Assembly (NCBI GenBank): GCA_026388095.1
Contig: JAPLKL010000067.1
Coordinates: 1 to 64,000 of the forward strand
Direction of reading: 5' to 3'
Length of the DNA stretch: 64,000 bases
Source: Elusimicrobiota bacterium
GTDB taxonomy: Bacteria > Elusimicrobiota > Elusimicrobia > UBA1565 > UBA9628
Below, in pieces: positions 28,900 to 40,767 of this stretch (positions are counted from its first letter, which is position 1; each line of letters opens with the position of its first letter). The notes below the pieces were generated by a model that saw nothing but the letters and a program-made list of their open reading frames with translations, was not told where the DNA came from and searched no databases. A program made the position numbers and the translations under genes.

Positions 28900-29955
28900 A
28901 TGAGAGGGAAGTCTCTGTCCCGGCTCCTGGCTCTGCTTCTGGCCATGCTGCCCGGCTCCGGCTGGGGCGCGCGCGTGGCCCTGCCGCCGGCCGTGGCGCC
29001 GACGCGCTTCGCCGGCCCCCTGGCCGTGGCGGTCCGGGCCGGCACGCCGCTGGCGCCGATCTCTCTGAGCCTCGGGTCCTTGCAGCCGGGCGTCCCGCCG
29101 CTGCTGGCGCCCGCGCTTCCCATGGCCCCGGCCGTTGTCCCGGCGGCATCGCCGCTGGCGGTCCTGAAGCAGACCGGCGTTTTCTCGGGCCAAGCGCTAA
29201 AGGCCGCGCCTGCCGAGGCGGCCGCGGCGTCGGCCGCCGCGGTCTTCGACCAGGCCGACCTCGGGCTGGGGGACGTCCGGCGCCGCTGGGGCAAGCTCTA
29301 TCAGGACGGCCGGGAGTTGGAGGTCCTGGGCGAAGGCTCTTTCGGCCGGGTCTACGTGCATCCTCGCGACCCGGGCGCCGTGGTCAAGCTGATGACCAGT
29401 CTATCCGGCGACATCGCCCGGCAGTCGGCCCGGCAGGACAGCCAGGTCGGCATGAAGCTCGCCCAGGCCGGCGTCGGCCCCGCGGTCCTGGGGGTCTACG
29501 ACATCCCCGGCCGGCCCAGCCGCCTGCGCCGCTGGCTCTGGCGCCTCTTCGGACTGGAGGCCCGCGCTCCGCCGCGCCCGGCCGTGGTCAAGCAACGGGT
29601 CTACGGGAGCACGGTCTTGGAGCTCATCGATGAGCTCCGCTTCACTCAGAAGGATTACGAGCTCGTCATGCGCATGCTCGAGCGCATGGCCGACCGCGGC
29701 CTGAAGGTGGGAGACCTGCGCACCGCCAACATCATGATCGGGCGGACCGCCGCGGACCCGGAGCCGCGAGCCTATCTGGTGGACGGCGGCTGGCTGCTCC
29801 CGGTGAAGGAAGGCGCGAGCCGGGAGGAGAGGCTGCGCGAGCTCAAGACCCAGCAGATGGAGATCCTCGGCGCCGGCGGTTCCGTGGGCTGGGCCAACGT
29901 CCTGGACCCCTTCGACGACATCCTTCAGGAAGGGCTCAGGGCTTCTCGGCCATGA
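28900..29955 (+). CDS. Secreted protein-kinase-like protein
   Basis: 351 residues. An N-terminal signal peptide (GSGWGAR) is followed by a long Ala/Pro/Leu-rich leader to residue 110. Then a kinase fold: glycine loop VLGEGSFGRVYVH (about residue 142), Lys in AVVKLM, catalytic-loop-like GDLRTANIMIG (about residue 270; Asp and Asn kept, the usual HR lost) and VDGG in place of DFG (about 293). All key ATP and metal ligands are present, so activity is possible, though ATP would be lacking outside the cytoplasm. CATAAT lies 6 nt before the ATG. Its 3' end overlaps the convergent methyltransferase gene by 20 bp. Confidence 0.68.
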   Translation: MRGKSLSRLLALLLAMLPGSGWGARVALPPAVAPTRFAGPLAVAVRAGTPLAPISLSLGSLQPGVPPLLAPALPMAPAVVPAASPLAVLKQTGVFSGQALKAAPAEAAAASAAAVFDQADLGLGDVRRRWGKLYQDGRELEVLGEGSFGRVYVHPRDPGAVVKLMTSLSGDIARQSARQDSQVGMKLAQAGVGPAVLGVYDIPGRPSRLRRWLWRLFGLEARAPPRPAVVKQRVYGSTVLELIDELRFTQKDYELVMRMLERMADRGLKVGDLRTANIMIGRTAADPEPRAYLVDGGWLLPVKEGASREERLRELKTQQMEILGAGGSVGWANVLDPFDDILQEGLRASRP

Positions 29956-30892
29956 CCTCGAAGTCGTAGCCGAACTCGGTGTCGGCAAAACGCCAGAAGT
30001 GCTTGAGGCGGTCTCCCCAGAGATAGCGCGGCCAACTGGGCTGGGGCGGGATCAGGGCCCGTCCCTGCTCCAAAGAGAGCTCCTCGACCTTGGCCGCGGC
30101 CGCCTCGGCCCAGGTGTCCCTCTTGAAATTCTTGTAGGCTCTGGGCAGCCAGCCCCGCGCCTTCATGCCGAGCTTGAGGTGGAAGCAGCGCAGCGAGACC
30201 ACGCGCAGGCCTAAGGAGCCGAGCAGGCCCAGCAAAGAGCGGCGCGAGAAGAAGAACAGGTGTCCGCCATGGCGGGTGTGCACCGGGCGGCCCCATCGTC
30301 GGCTCAAAGTCCTATTGGGCATGAGGTCCACCGGGCCGTTGGGCACGATGAGCTCCAGTCGGCCGCCGGGCCGGAGCATGCGCGCCACGCTGGCCACGGC
30401 CGCGCGGGGGGCGGGCTCGTGCTCGAGCACGTTGTTGAGGAGGATGTAGTCGAAGCTCTCCGGCGGATAGGGGGACTCGGAGAGCGGGCAGCTGGCGATC
30501 TCCAGGCCGTTGAGCCGCCGGCCCAGTTCCGCGGCCGCAGCCGAGAACTCCAGGCCGCGCACCCGCCAGCCCGAATGGTCGCGCAGTCCGGCCAGCATGG
30601 TGCCCAAGGCGCAGCCGGTGTCCAGGAAATCGCCGCTGGTGCGCCACTGCGAGAGGCGCAGGCCGATGGCCCGGCCCTTATAGTAGTCTCGTCAGTATTG
30701 CTTGAAGAAGGTCCCGAAATAGACCGGCGGGTAGCAGCGGGAGATCTCCTCGGCCGAGGGCGTGGGGTGGTAGAAGGCGGCGCCGCAGTCCGGGCAGTCG
30801 TAGACGTCCTTGACGCGGTCCAGGCAGAGCACGGCCGGGCAGGCCAGTCGTATCCGGGCGCCCAGGCAGACCGGGCAGGCGTTAGCGGGCAT
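29936..30892 (-). pseudogene. SAM-dependent methyltransferase interrupted by one in-frame TGA
   Basis: The 66 residues from 30892 hold a zinc ribbon (CPVC...CPDC) and end FGTFFKQY at a TGA (30692-30694). The same frame then runs on to 29936 as RDYYKGRAIG...FLDTGCALGTML, a class I methyltransferase with EFDYILLNNVLEH and GGRLELIVPNG. Both halves together make a normal-length two-domain protein of 318 residues. Trp (TGG) is the natural residue between QY and RDYY, so the TGA is a single-base change, a read-through site or a sequence error. TACAAT lies 8 nt before the ATG. Likely target: sugar or lipid in surface polymer synthesis; unproven. Confidence 0.8.
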
Positions 30893-31107
30893 GGCGGCCT
30901 ATTGTAGCTGTTTGCCCCGCCGCGGGGTAGGGCCGCTAGTCCAAGGCGCGAAACGCGTCTCCTGCGACTTCTCGACTTCACTCACTTTCTTCGTTGCCGT
31001 TGCAGAAGGTTCCAGCGCACAGCGCCGGAATCCGCCCGCCGCAGGCGCCCAAGAGGGGCTGACCACTAGCCTTTATGATTTCGCGCCGACAAGGAACGGG
31101 CGACGCC
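30893..31107. other. Left part of a 474-bp gap
   Basis: No gene seen. Holds the minus-strand TACAAT (30901-30906) for the methyltransferase gene and several short GC hairpins, including CCCCG/CGGGG at about 30916-30928 and CAGCGC/GCGCCGG near 31013-31026. The sequence is neither coding-like nor a copy of the main hairpin repeats. Confidence 0.4.
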
Positions 31108-35858: not shown

Positions 35859-37469
35859 ATGAGGAGGGCGTCTTGGGCGGCGGGGGGGCTGTGGCTCCTG
35901 GCCGTGCTCATGCCTTGGACCGGCCTGCCTTGGCGGGCCTTCAGCATCCCGGCCGGAGCGCTGCTCATGCTGCTGGCGGCCGCGCTGGCGCTGTCGCCCG
36001 CGGGGGTGGGCGCGGCCGAGGAGACGGCGCAGGGCCTCGAAGCGCTGGACCCGGAGCGCTCGGCTTGGCGCCTGGCCGCGCTCTTCTTCTTGTGGCTGGC
36101 CAGCCTCAAGCTCTGCCAGTACGCCTCCTTCCAGTCCCACTACGGCGATCTCGGCCAGGACGCCAACATTTGTTGGAACACCTTGCACGGCCGCCCTTTC
36201 TTCGACTCCATGACGGGCACGAACTTTCTGGGGGACCATTTCGAGCCGGTGCTGGCCCTCTGCGCTCTGGCCTTGAAGGTCTGGCCCAGCGCCGCGGTCC
36301 TGCTCCTCATCCAAAGCCTGGCCTTGGCTTTGGCCGTGGTCCCTCTGGCCGCACTGGCGCGGCGGCATTGCCGGCACCACGCCTTGGTCCTGGCCGCGGC
36401 GGTCCTCTTCATGCTCAATCCCTATCTGCACCTGGTCAGCGAGTTCGATTTCCATCCCGAGGCGCTCTTCATCCCGGCCGCGCTATGGGCTCTCCTCTTC
36501 TGGGAGCAGGGCCGGCCCTGGCTGGCCGGATTCACGGCCTTGCTCTGCCTGGGTCTCAAGGAGGATGTCCCGCTGGCCCTGGCCGGCTTCGGGCTCTACG
36601 CGGCGCTGTTCCGGGGCAAGAAGGCTGGCTGGGTCCTGGCCGCTGTTTCAAGCGCGGCTTTCGCCGTCATCGCTCTGTGGGTCATCCCGCATTTCGCGGG
36701 CAGCCGGGTCTCCTTGCACCAGGACCGCTACGCGAGCCTGGGGGCCAGCACGGCCGAGATGATCCGCAACATCGCCTGGCATCCCTGGGTGGTGCCCCTG
36801 CGGCTGCTGCGGCCCCGGGTGCTGCTGACTTCGGCGGCCTTGCTGGCCAGCGTGGGCTTCCTGCCCCTGGCCGCGCCTGCGGCCTTGGTGCCGGCGCTGG
36901 GGGCCTGTCTGCACCATCTGCTCTCCGACTACCGTTCGCAGTACTGTCTGGTCTCGCAGTACTCGGCGCTGACCGTGCCCTTCCTCTTTTACGCCGCGCT
37001 CAAGGGTCTGGCCGTCTGCGAGGAGAGGCTTTGGTCCAGGAAGGGCCGGCTGGCCTCGGGCTTCCTTTTCCTTTACGGAGCGGCGCTCGCCTTCCAGCCC
37101 TTCTATACGGGGCCTTTCAAATGGGGCGATATCCTGGAGGCGGCGGCCCTGGTCCGGCAGGTCCCGGACCATGCCTCCGTGGCCGTGGACGGCAGCCGCG
37201 GCCGGGGCCGGGAGGACCTGCTGCCGCATCTGGCCCTGCGCGGCCAACTGTCCCAGTTCGACGCGGCCCGGCCCTTCCAGGAGCCGTCCGCGGAGTATGT
37301 GCTCCTGGACCATCGGCTTTCGGCGGAATTCGCCGCCGGCCTGGCCAAGACCGGAAGATTCGCGCGGCTGGGCGCGGGCGACGGCTTGGAGTTATGGCGC
37401 CGGCTGGAAGACCACGGGCAGCTCGCTGCGCGGGATGACGCGCCAGCGCTGCTCCGGCCGCGGCGCTGA
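35859..37469 (+). CDS. DUF2079 multi-pass membrane protein
   Basis: 536 residues with about 11 hydrophobic segments. The loop GDLGQDANICWNTLHGRPFFDS...GDHFEPVLAL is the hallmark of DUF2079, a group related to the GT-C membrane glycosyltransferases; the Asp and the DHFEP acidic site would be catalytic. The C-terminal 150 residues form a soluble domain (DHASVAVDGSRGRG). TATAAT (35845-35850) ends 8 nt before the ATG. The 3' end overlaps the extended anti-sigma frame on the other strand by 78 bp. Confidence 0.85.
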   Translation: MRRASWAAGGLWLLAVLMPWTGLPWRAFSIPAGALLMLLAAALALSPAGVGAAEETAQGLEALDPERSAWRLAALFFLWLASLKLCQYASFQSHYGDLGQDANICWNTLHGRPFFDSMTGTNFLGDHFEPVLALCALALKVWPSAAVLLLIQSLALALAVVPLAALARRHCRHHALVLAAAVLFMLNPYLHLVSEFDFHPEALFIPAALWALLFWEQGRPWLAGFTALLCLGLKEDVPLALAGFGLYAALFRGKKAGWVLAAVSSAAFAVIALWVIPHFAGSRVSLHQDRYASLGASTAEMIRNIAWHPWVVPLRLLRPRVLLTSAALLASVGFLPLAAPAALVPALGACLHHLLSDYRSQYCLVSQYSALTVPFLFYAALKGLAVCEERLWSRKGRLASGFLFLYGAALAFQPFYTGPFKWGDILEAAALVRQVPDHASVAVDGSRGRGREDLLPHLALRGQLSQFDAARPFQEPSAEYVLLDHRLSAEFAAGLAKTGRFARLGAGDGLELWRRLEDHGQLAARDDAPALLRPRR

Positions 37470-38585
37470 GCCCAGCGGCCGGAAGCTGACCACGATGCGG
37501 TCGGCGCCTGGGACCACGGATTCGATGCGGGCCTGGCCGAAGAGCACCACCAGCATCTCTTTGGAGAAATCCACGCGCGGGGCGGAGCCGGGCAGACCTT
37601 GCTCGCGTCAGAGCAAGACCGACTCCTCCATGGAGTAGACGGCCCGGCCGGTCTCCAGGGGAGCGGCCGCGGGCAGGGGCACGCCCTCCTTCTTCAGCTT
37701 GGCCGGGGCCCGGCCGCCGCTGAAGTCCTCCGGCGGCACCAAGGCGCCCTCGGCCGCGCTGCGGCCCGGGCCCTGCGGCTGGGCCAGGAGCGTGCTGGTC
37801 TGGCCGACGAGCGGGGCGGGGACGGACTCAGCTACGAAGCTCGGCCCTGCCGCGGGCGCGAGGTCGCGCGCCGCGCCCCGCAGGGCGCGCACCACGGAAT
37901 TCGGGGTGAGGATGCGCTGGATGCCCATGCGGGCGCGTTCGGCCTCGAGGTGCTTCTGCAGGGCTTCGTTGGAGTAGGCGGGCTTGGCTGCGGGGGCTTC
38001 ATCGAGGGCTCTGCCGCCGAAGCCCTTCGGGGCCGCCGGGGCGGAGAGTCCGGCCGCCGAGATGCCTGCGGCTCCCGCGTCTGCGCCGCGCAGGGCCGCG
38101 ATGCCTTCGGCGCGTCTCTGCTCCTTGGACAGGGCCACCAGGTCGCTGACCGTGACCGGGCCTGCCGGCCCAGCCGGCGGCGGTGCCGCCACGGATTTTA
38201 AATCGGAGGCCGCGCCGGAGACCATCCCTTGCAGCGGCTCGGCCATGCGCGGCGGGGTCTGGAGGTTCAAGGTCTTGTAGGTCACGAAGATGACGGCGAA
38301 GGCGCAGGCCGCCCAGGCCGCGTTGCGCGGCGCCAGCAAAGAGGCCCAGCCCTCGGTCCGGGTCTCCTGCCTGCGCCGATTCTCCAGGCGCTGCAGGAAT
38401 CCCGCGGGCAAGGGCTTCTGGGGCAGGCCTTTGACCATGCCGCAGGCCTTGCGCAGGTCCTCGAGCTCGGCGCGGCACTCGGCGCAGTCCTTCAGGTGCG
38501 CCTCGATGCGGCCGCGCTCGGCGTCCGCCGCGGCCCCGTCCAGATAGCCGGAGAGGTTCTCTTTCTCGTGTCTCATGTTCGTCAC
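37392..38585 (-). pseudogene. Zinc-finger anti-sigma factor split by in-frame TGA from a PrcB-like C-terminus
   Basis: From GTG 38585 the first part (325 residues) has a zf-HC2 zinc finger (H30, C34, C37 in HLKDCAEC), one membrane helix near residues 88-105 and an Ala/Pro-rich periplasmic region, ending SMEESVLL at TGA (37608-37610). The same frame continues for 72 codons: REQGLPGSAPRVDFSKEMLV..., closely like the C-terminal PrcB-type domain, to TAA at 37392. Trp is expected at the TGA (LL-W-RE). The start overlaps the sigma gene's stop (GTGA), the normal sigma/anti-sigma coupling. It should hold the sigma factor inactive at the membrane. Confidence 0.78.
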
Positions 38586-39124
38586 GGCGCCACCTTCTTC
38601 AGCAGCCGGGCCTTCAAGGCCTCGCGGGCTCGGGAGAGGCGCGACTTGACCGTCCCTTCCGGCACGCCCAGGGCCTCGGCCAGCTCCTGGTACGACTGCC
38701 CCTGGATCTCGCGCAGCACGATGATGCCGCGGCTGTCCTCATCGAGCTCCATGAGCGCTGACTGCACCTGCGCCTCCTGCTCCGCCTTCTCCAGGCCCTG
38801 GTCCAGGGGCGGATCGTCGGCCGGAAACGGAGCCTCCTCGTCGCCCTCCTCGCCCGTGAACAGGCCCAAAGAGACCGTCTTCCAGAACCCCCGCCGCTTC
38901 TCGGAGCGCACCCGGTTCTTCCAGGTGTTGACCGTGATTCGGTAGACCCAGGTCTTGAGGCCCGACTCGCCCCGGAAACCGGGGAGGGCCTTGAGCGCCC
39001 GGATCAGCGAGTCCTGGGCCAGATCCTCAGCGTCGGCGGCGTTGCCGGTCAGGCGCAGCGCCACGTTGTAGACCAGCTGCGCGGTCTGAGCCAGGAGCTC
39101 CTGTTCGCCTATTCTGTTGGACAC
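38582..39124 (-). CDS. ECF-type RNA polymerase sigma factor
   Basis: 180 residues with sigma region 2 (VYNVALRLTGNAADAEDLAQDSLIRALKALPGFRGES and LKTWVYRITVNTWKNR) and region 4 (LREIQGQSYQELAEALGVPEGTVKSRLSRAREALK). It directs transcription of a stress or envelope regulon and is coupled to the downstream anti-sigma gene. It starts with GTG; no good Shine-Dalgarno. A hairpin train lies directly upstream, between it and the metK operon. Confidence 0.95.
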   Translation of the reverse strand: MSNRIGEQELLAQTAQLVYNVALRLTGNAADAEDLAQDSLIRALKALPGFRGESGLKTWVYRITVNTWKNRVRSEKRRGFWKTVSLGLFTGEEGDEEAPFPADDPPLDQGLEKAEQEAQVQSALMELDEDSRGIIVLREIQGQSYQELAEALGVPEGTVKSRLSRAREALKARLLKKVAP

Positions 39125-39549: not shown

Positions 39550-40767
39550 TCAGGCCGCCGTGAGGACCTTGCGTCCCGCCTTGGAGGGAGCCTTGCCCAG
39601 CAGCTCCTCGCGCAGGGCTTCGGCCTTGTCCGTCTTCTCCCACTCGAACCCCTTCTCCTCGCGGCCGAAGTGGCCGAAGGCGGCTGTGGCCCGGTAGATG
39701 GGCCGGCGCAGCTTGAGGGACTCGATGATGCCGCGCGGGGTCAGCGCGAAATGCTTGCGCACCGCGGCCTCGATGCGGCTCTCGTCGACCTGGCCCGTGC
39801 CGTGGGTGTTGAAGTACACTCCCACCGGCTCGGCCACGCCGATGGCGTAGGCCAGCTGCACCGTGCATTCGTCAGCCAAGCCGGCGGCCACGACGTTCTT
39901 GGCGATGTGGCGGGCCATGTAGCAGGCGGAGCGGTCCACCTTCGTCGGGTCCTTGCCGGAGAAGGCGCCGCCGCCGTGCGGGGCGCGGCCGCCGTAGGTG
40001 TCCACGATGATCTTGCGGCCGGTCACGCCGGTGTCGGAGACCGGGCCGCCCACGACGAACTTGCCCGTGGGGTTGATGAGGATCTTGGTGTCCTTGTCCA
40101 TGAGGCGCTTGCCCAGGACCGGCTTGATGATGGCCTCTGTGATCTCGGCGCGGGCCTTGTCCGTGATCTGCTTGCCGGAGCGGTCCAGGATCTCGGTGGT
40201 GTGCTGGGTGGAGACGACCACGGTGTCCACGCGCAGGGCGCGGCCGTCCACGTACTCCACGGTCACCTGGGACTTGCCGTCCGGCCCGAGGTACTTGAGG
40301 CCGTTGGCGCGGCGCACGTCGGAGAGCTTGCGGCAGAGCTTATGGGCCAGCATGATGGGCAGGGGCATGAACTCGGGCGTCTCCCGGCAGGCGTAGCCGA
40401 ACATGATGCCCTGGTCGCCGGCTCCGCCGGTGTCAACGCCCTGGGCGATGTCCGGGGACTGGCGGCCGATGCAGTTCATGACGCCGCAGGTCGCGGCCTC
40501 GAAGCCGTACTTGTGATGGTCGTAGCCGATCTCCTCGATGACCTGGCGGGCCAGCGCGTCGACGTTCACGAAGGTCTTGGTGGTGATCTCGCCGCCCACG
40601 ATGACCATGCCGCGCGTGATGAAGCTCTCGCAGGCCACGCGCCCGGTCGGGTCGTCCTTCATGACCGCGTCGAGGACGCCGTCGGATATCTGGTCGCAGA
40701 CCTTGTCCGGGTGGCCTTCGGTGACCGACTCCGAGGTGAAAAAGTACTTGCCGTTGTCGCGCTGCAT
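39550..40767 (-). CDS. metK: S-adenosylmethionine synthase
   Basis: 405 residues; ATP plus methionine to S-adenosylmethionine in the cytoplasm, feeding the methyltransferases and radical SAM enzymes common in this window. Signatures: [13 protein letters not shown] at the start, [12 protein letters not shown], and [23 protein letters not shown] lies 4 nt before the ATG. Upstream, TTGAGT and TATCAT at 18-bp spacing on the minus strand (about 40820-40849) form a candidate promoter with a leader of roughly 50 nt; no riboswitch fold was recognised. Confidence 0.97.

Follow-up and report, generated by a model that had tools for sequence, protein, structure and literature searches.

The window (the whole stretch of 64,000 nucleotides analysed here) is part of contig 67 (128 kb) in a draft assembly comprising 4.6 Mb in 79 contigs, and the nearest named relative is an Elusimicrobia MAG, isolate STD1_184. 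Beside metK, the reverse strand carries an ECF sigma factor gene whose end shares 4 bases with the start of a frame for an anti-sigma factor (Table 1). This frame opens with a GTG at 38585, with an ATG three codons in, and after 325 codons reaches an in-frame TGA, beyond which it remains open for another 71 codons up to its terminal TGA, as a first-pass annotation of this DNA had described. The encoded protein begins with a zf-HC2 domain, followed by a probable membrane segment, a long linker, and a PrcB-like C-terminus; as its N-terminal zf-HC2 domain is encoded beside an ECF sigma gene, it belongs to the zf-HC2 membrane anti-sigma factors, and the identity proposed earlier is upheld. From its domain and the gene order, the protein would be expected to bind and inhibit its sigma factor. 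A search of viral contigs with the anti-sigma protein gave no match.

Table 1. Coordinates of the sigma/anti-sigma locus, its neighbours, and the second in-frame TGA of the window.
Feature	Position	Strand	Basis or remark
Second in-frame TGA, within the frame (29936-30898) of a SAM-dependent methyltransferase	30692..30694	-	Trp in 11/11 relatives; context C-TGA-CG
DUF2079 membrane protein gene	35859..37469	+	Pfam DUF2079, E 4.4e-60
Terminal TGA of the uninterrupted anti-sigma frame	37392..37394	-	translation
PrcB-like domain at the C-terminus (residues 314-397), interrupted by the internal TGA	37395..37646	-	alignment and profile comparison
In-frame TGA of the anti-sigma frame	37608..37610	-	column is Trp in 24/24 aligned relatives
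Anti-sigma ORF, 325 aa	37608..38585	-	ends at internal TGA; zf-HC2 match
Probable single membrane segment (~residues 89-105, AAWAACAFAVIFVTYKT)	38271..38321	-	suggested by hydrophobicity of the translation
zf-HC2 zinc-finger domain (residues 9-38)	38472..38561	-	Pfam PF13490, E 1.2e-8
ECF sigma factor gene, 180 aa	38582..39124	-	Pfam Sigma70_r2, E 4.5e-19; Sigma70_r4_2, E 2e-16
metK (S-adenosylmethionine synthetase), conserved syntenic upstream neighbour	39550..40767	-	domain match and synteny

Codon bias is gene-like both upstream and downstream of the internal TGA, and the full 397-residue protein matches one unbroken ORF in the congener G001 at 71-73% identity (tblastn), which indicates that the frame is not open past the stop by mere chance. 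The long ORFs nearby, in 31-41 kb of the window, are uninterrupted. The anti-sigma frame and the DUF2079 gene of the opposite strand lie tail to tail, and their 3' ends share 78 bp (37392-37469). In congeners G001 and G006 the overlap has the same length of 78 bp; in G003 it is 18 bp.

The C-terminal domain and its tryptophan column

When the C-terminus from the window was compared with Pfam, no direct match to PrcB_C (PF14343) was obtained up to an E-value of 5, and its assignment comes from profile comparison. The C-termini of the genus align with those of other Elusimicrobia anti-sigma factors with an hhalign probability of 99.0%, and with that of a homologue (L022, in genome G053), in which Pfam calls PrcB_C at E 1.9e-11, with a probability of 96.5%. 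This homology to recognised members bears out the earlier description of the domain as PrcB-like. A structure prediction for the C-terminus, made from a two-sequence alignment, had a mean pLDDT of 51. The fusion of linker and PrcB-like domain is common to many aligned Elusimicrobia relatives; in the titles and abstracts of the literature on PrcB with anti-sigma factors, we found no report of such a fusion.

The internal TGA parts this domain from the rest of the anti-sigma factor, as had been noted, and leaves 71 of the domain's residues downstream. Tryptophan occupies the column of the TGA in every one of the 24 relatives with an aligned C-terminus, and the codon is TGG in all four congeners that retain the domain, in agreement with the earlier proposal that tryptophan is the ancestral residue. 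None of the 24 has an in-frame stop at this column, and the conserved stop that would point to read-through was thus not found among them. The part of the frame downstream of the TGA is well preserved: relative to G001, dN is 0.097 downstream versus 0.177 upstream, the two C-termini align without gaps, and the downstream part carries two private amino acid changes on each of the two branches. In the pairwise comparison with G003, the downstream part holds too few synonymous changes for dN/dS. As the downstream domain is undecayed, the stop must be of recent origin, erroneous, or subject to read-through. According to a published survey, most bacterial in-frame stops last no longer than polymorphisms do (PMC7918605).

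Decoding of TGA and other internal stops

TGA use was analyzed in two samples of the genome, the first of 1.17 Mb and the second of 1.91 Mb (41% of the genome) with a stricter limit on ORF length. TGA terminates 325 of 683 long ORFs in the first sample and 456 of 864 in the second. RF2 is intact (475 bits versus a cut-off of 370), and models of SelB and tRNA-Sec gave nothing above their curated cut-offs in this genome. ARAGORN, run on the sampled sequence and on segments surrounding the other tRNA hits from Rfam, identified 50 tRNAs, a single tRNA-Trp(CCA) among them; no tRNA in this set has a UCA anticodon. That TGA has been reassigned to tryptophan or recoded as selenocysteine would account for two TGAs at tryptophan positions in one 64-kb window, but genome-wide, both are refuted by the terminator counts, the RF2, and the tRNA and SelB results, and the 5,590 TGG codons in the ORFs of the first sample also speak against them; we regard this explanation as having virtually no chance of being correct.

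The tRNA-Trp(CCA) is located at L144/L161 (contig 76 of the window genome, 34429-34502). G001, in which the anti-sigma codon is TGG, has the very same tRNA sequence, and that of G003 departs from it at a single base. The anticodon stem of five pairs eliminates superwobble by way of a 4-bp stem. In our own position numbering the tRNA carries C9 and a U11-A24 pair; since A9C and G24A in tRNA-Trp promote UGA read-through in E. coli (PMC13092985), it is conceivable that basal misreading of UGA by this tRNA is somewhat above average.

The surroundings of the anti-sigma TGA resemble those of ordinary gene ends. The context C-TGA-CG, to which the first-pass annotation had drawn attention, is real and common to both in-frame TGAs of the window, but it is not special, being found at 10 of the 325 ordinary TGA terminators of the first sample. 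In the same sample, 261 of the 5,590 TGG codons are intact C-TGG-CG codons, which excludes a systematic error at CTGGCG. No RNA structure was predicted downstream of the anti-sigma TGA (z +0.94 and +0.20), and stimulatory features that ordinary terminators lack were thus not found in context or structure. The fold after the methyltransferase TGA is somewhat stable (z -2.46).

A scan of the 1.91 Mb for codon bias, which would detect approximately 41-45% of TGG codons turned to stops, was run at two settings, each of which gave ten candidates. Upon inspection of the translations, the only convincing internal TGAs were that of the anti-sigma frame and that at 30692-30694, which is most likely the other TGA alluded to by the first-pass annotation. 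These lie 6.9 kb apart, and 1.84 Mb of other sequence from this genome holds no comparable TGA; a locally weak stretch of the assembly is one possible cause of this clustering. An in-frame TAA occurs at L037:9996-9998 on the forward strand, in a frame reading ...AALH*NPAGLA..., and may be another sporadic stop in this genome. The frame around it presumably resembles an outer-membrane motif of the FadL/OmpP1 type.

The module beside metK and the origin of the stop

Comparison within the genus reveals that the ECF sigma/zf-HC2/PrcB module beside metK is being eroded progressively. The congener genomes are drafts, 79-99% complete, and the losses beside metK are seen inside contigs. The window genome keeps the sigma gene, zinc finger, membrane segment, linker, and PrcB-like domain beside metK, and all five parts are also present in G001, on contigs too short to show metK. 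G002 and G003 retain the later parts at the metK locus, the sigma gene and zinc finger being absent there. G004 and G005 likewise lack both at the locus, where all that is left is a short membrane-linker ORF terminating ahead of the PrcB domain, and neither genome has a PrcB-like match anywhere. In G006 the locus is interrupted by a contig end. Within the genus, a sigma orthologue with at least 90% identity was found only in G001. The erosion spans 37392-39124 of the window and loci L003, L020/L234, L232, and L233 of the congeners, and the membrane-linker core persists. Homologues that end where the anti-sigma frame is interrupted had been suggested as a refutation of read-through, and the versions in G004 and G005 do end before the PrcB domain, albeit not at exactly this position. 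With these precedents for truncation before the domain, a stop here is plausibly tolerated.

Taken together, these results make it very probable that the TGA is a sporadic stop that prematurely interrupts the PrcB-like domain at a conserved tryptophan codon, in a module that is already eroding, and that it goes back either to a nonsense substitution of recent date in this lineage or to an erroneous consensus base in the draft assembly. The stop is confined to one genome, with tryptophan in all aligned relatives, and has a single convincing counterpart in the 41% of the genome that was scanned. It lies in a genome that decodes TGA normally, with a tRNA-Trp shared with a relative that has TGG, no RNA structure after the TGA, and a context found at ordinary gene ends, and both the undecayed downstream frame and the partial loss of the module in the congeners are in keeping with this explanation, as is the short persistence of in-frame stops in bacteria (PMC7918605). 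Two observations sit less easily with it: the only two TGAs of this kind, both at invariant tryptophans and in the same context, fall within 6.9 kb, a clustering that it leaves unexplained, and an undecayed downstream frame is equally expected under functional read-through. If the base is real, translation would mostly stop at residue 325, with at most basal read-through. The truncated protein would retain the zinc finger, membrane segment, and linker and would probably still bind the sigma factor, whereas the PrcB-like domain would lose its final 71 residues, save for basal misreading of UGA as tryptophan, a loss that is presumably tolerated because the module is already eroding.

Between the two components of this explanation, a real nonsense substitution, fixed or polymorphic, is given slightly better than an even chance. 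It is favoured by the absence of the PrcB-like domain from G004 and G005, by the disappearance of the sigma gene and zinc finger from the locus in four congeners, and by the unbroken state of the adjacent long ORFs, but it would have to be recent, as the downstream frame has not decayed, and the observation comes from a single assembly. An error of consensus or assembly, in which case the true gene encodes an intact anti-sigma factor of 397 residues, is rather less probable but still a serious candidate: the stop has been seen once, as a single-base departure from an otherwise invariant codon with the downstream frame preserved, and two convincing TGAs less than 7 kb apart are what a weak stretch of assembly would give, although other interrupted genes were not seen nearby and errors systematic for the motif are excluded by the intact C-TGG-CG codons. 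The first-pass annotation had instead envisaged regulated read-through, a switch yielding one anti-sigma isoform that has the PrcB-like domain and another that lacks it. Functional read-through of UGA by tRNA-Trp draws on the ancestral tryptophan at the column, on the misreading of UGA in E. coli, mostly as tryptophan (PMC11126739), on the 6% read-through of catA86-TGA in prfB+ B. subtilis (PMC7918605), and on the C9 and U11-A24 of the tRNA (PMC13092985). However, no relative shares the stop, G001 has the same tRNA-Trp sequence with TGG, the anticodon stem has its five pairs, RF2 is intact, no selenocysteine or suppressor tRNA was found, and neither the context nor the downstream RNA sets this TGA apart from ordinary terminators; regulated read-through, while possible, is therefore unsupported, and we consider the functional form improbable. 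Slightly more doubtful still is the related proposal that the tRNA-Trp bearing C9 and A24, common to this species and its closest relative, misreads UGA enough for a TGA at a tryptophan position to be tolerated as a low-output state, giving mostly anti-sigma factor lacking the PrcB domain and a minor full-length form.

The sporadic stop thus has the look of an isolated mutation or an error in the consensus rather than of a built-in on/off switch. Finding a single stop of this kind in one draft genome is nothing unusual and offers poor grounds for claims of recoding; the useful side result is a sigma/anti-sigma/PrcB module that is being dismantled piecewise within one genus, of which the window stop may be one more step. 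Were read-through to prove true, the genus would offer a natural setting in which to test the roles of positions 9 and 24 of tRNA-Trp in UGA misreading.

Like the sporadic in-frame stops described in bacteria by Belinky et al. 2021 (PMC7918605), the anti-sigma TGA is a single, apparently recent stop in a conserved gene of one lineage; in that study the stops used were common to at least two genomes, whereas the TGA described here comes from one draft genome and could be erroneous. As in the case of near-cognate UGA read-through by tRNA-Trp(CCA) (PMC13092985), the tRNA-Trp of this genome has C9 and A24, but here the stem is a normal one of 5 bp, TGA is a normal terminator, and the same tRNA occurs in a relative without the in-frame TGA. 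With respect to PrcB_C (PF14343), the window domain aligns with homologous anti-sigma C-termini, one of them recognised by Pfam, although the window and G001 sequences themselves fall below Pfam detection. Finally, the locus resembles the known pairs of ECF sigma factors and zf-HC2 (ZAS-type) membrane anti-sigma factors in its overlapping genes, N-terminal zinc finger, and one membrane segment, to which the window protein adds a long linker and a PrcB-like C-terminal domain.
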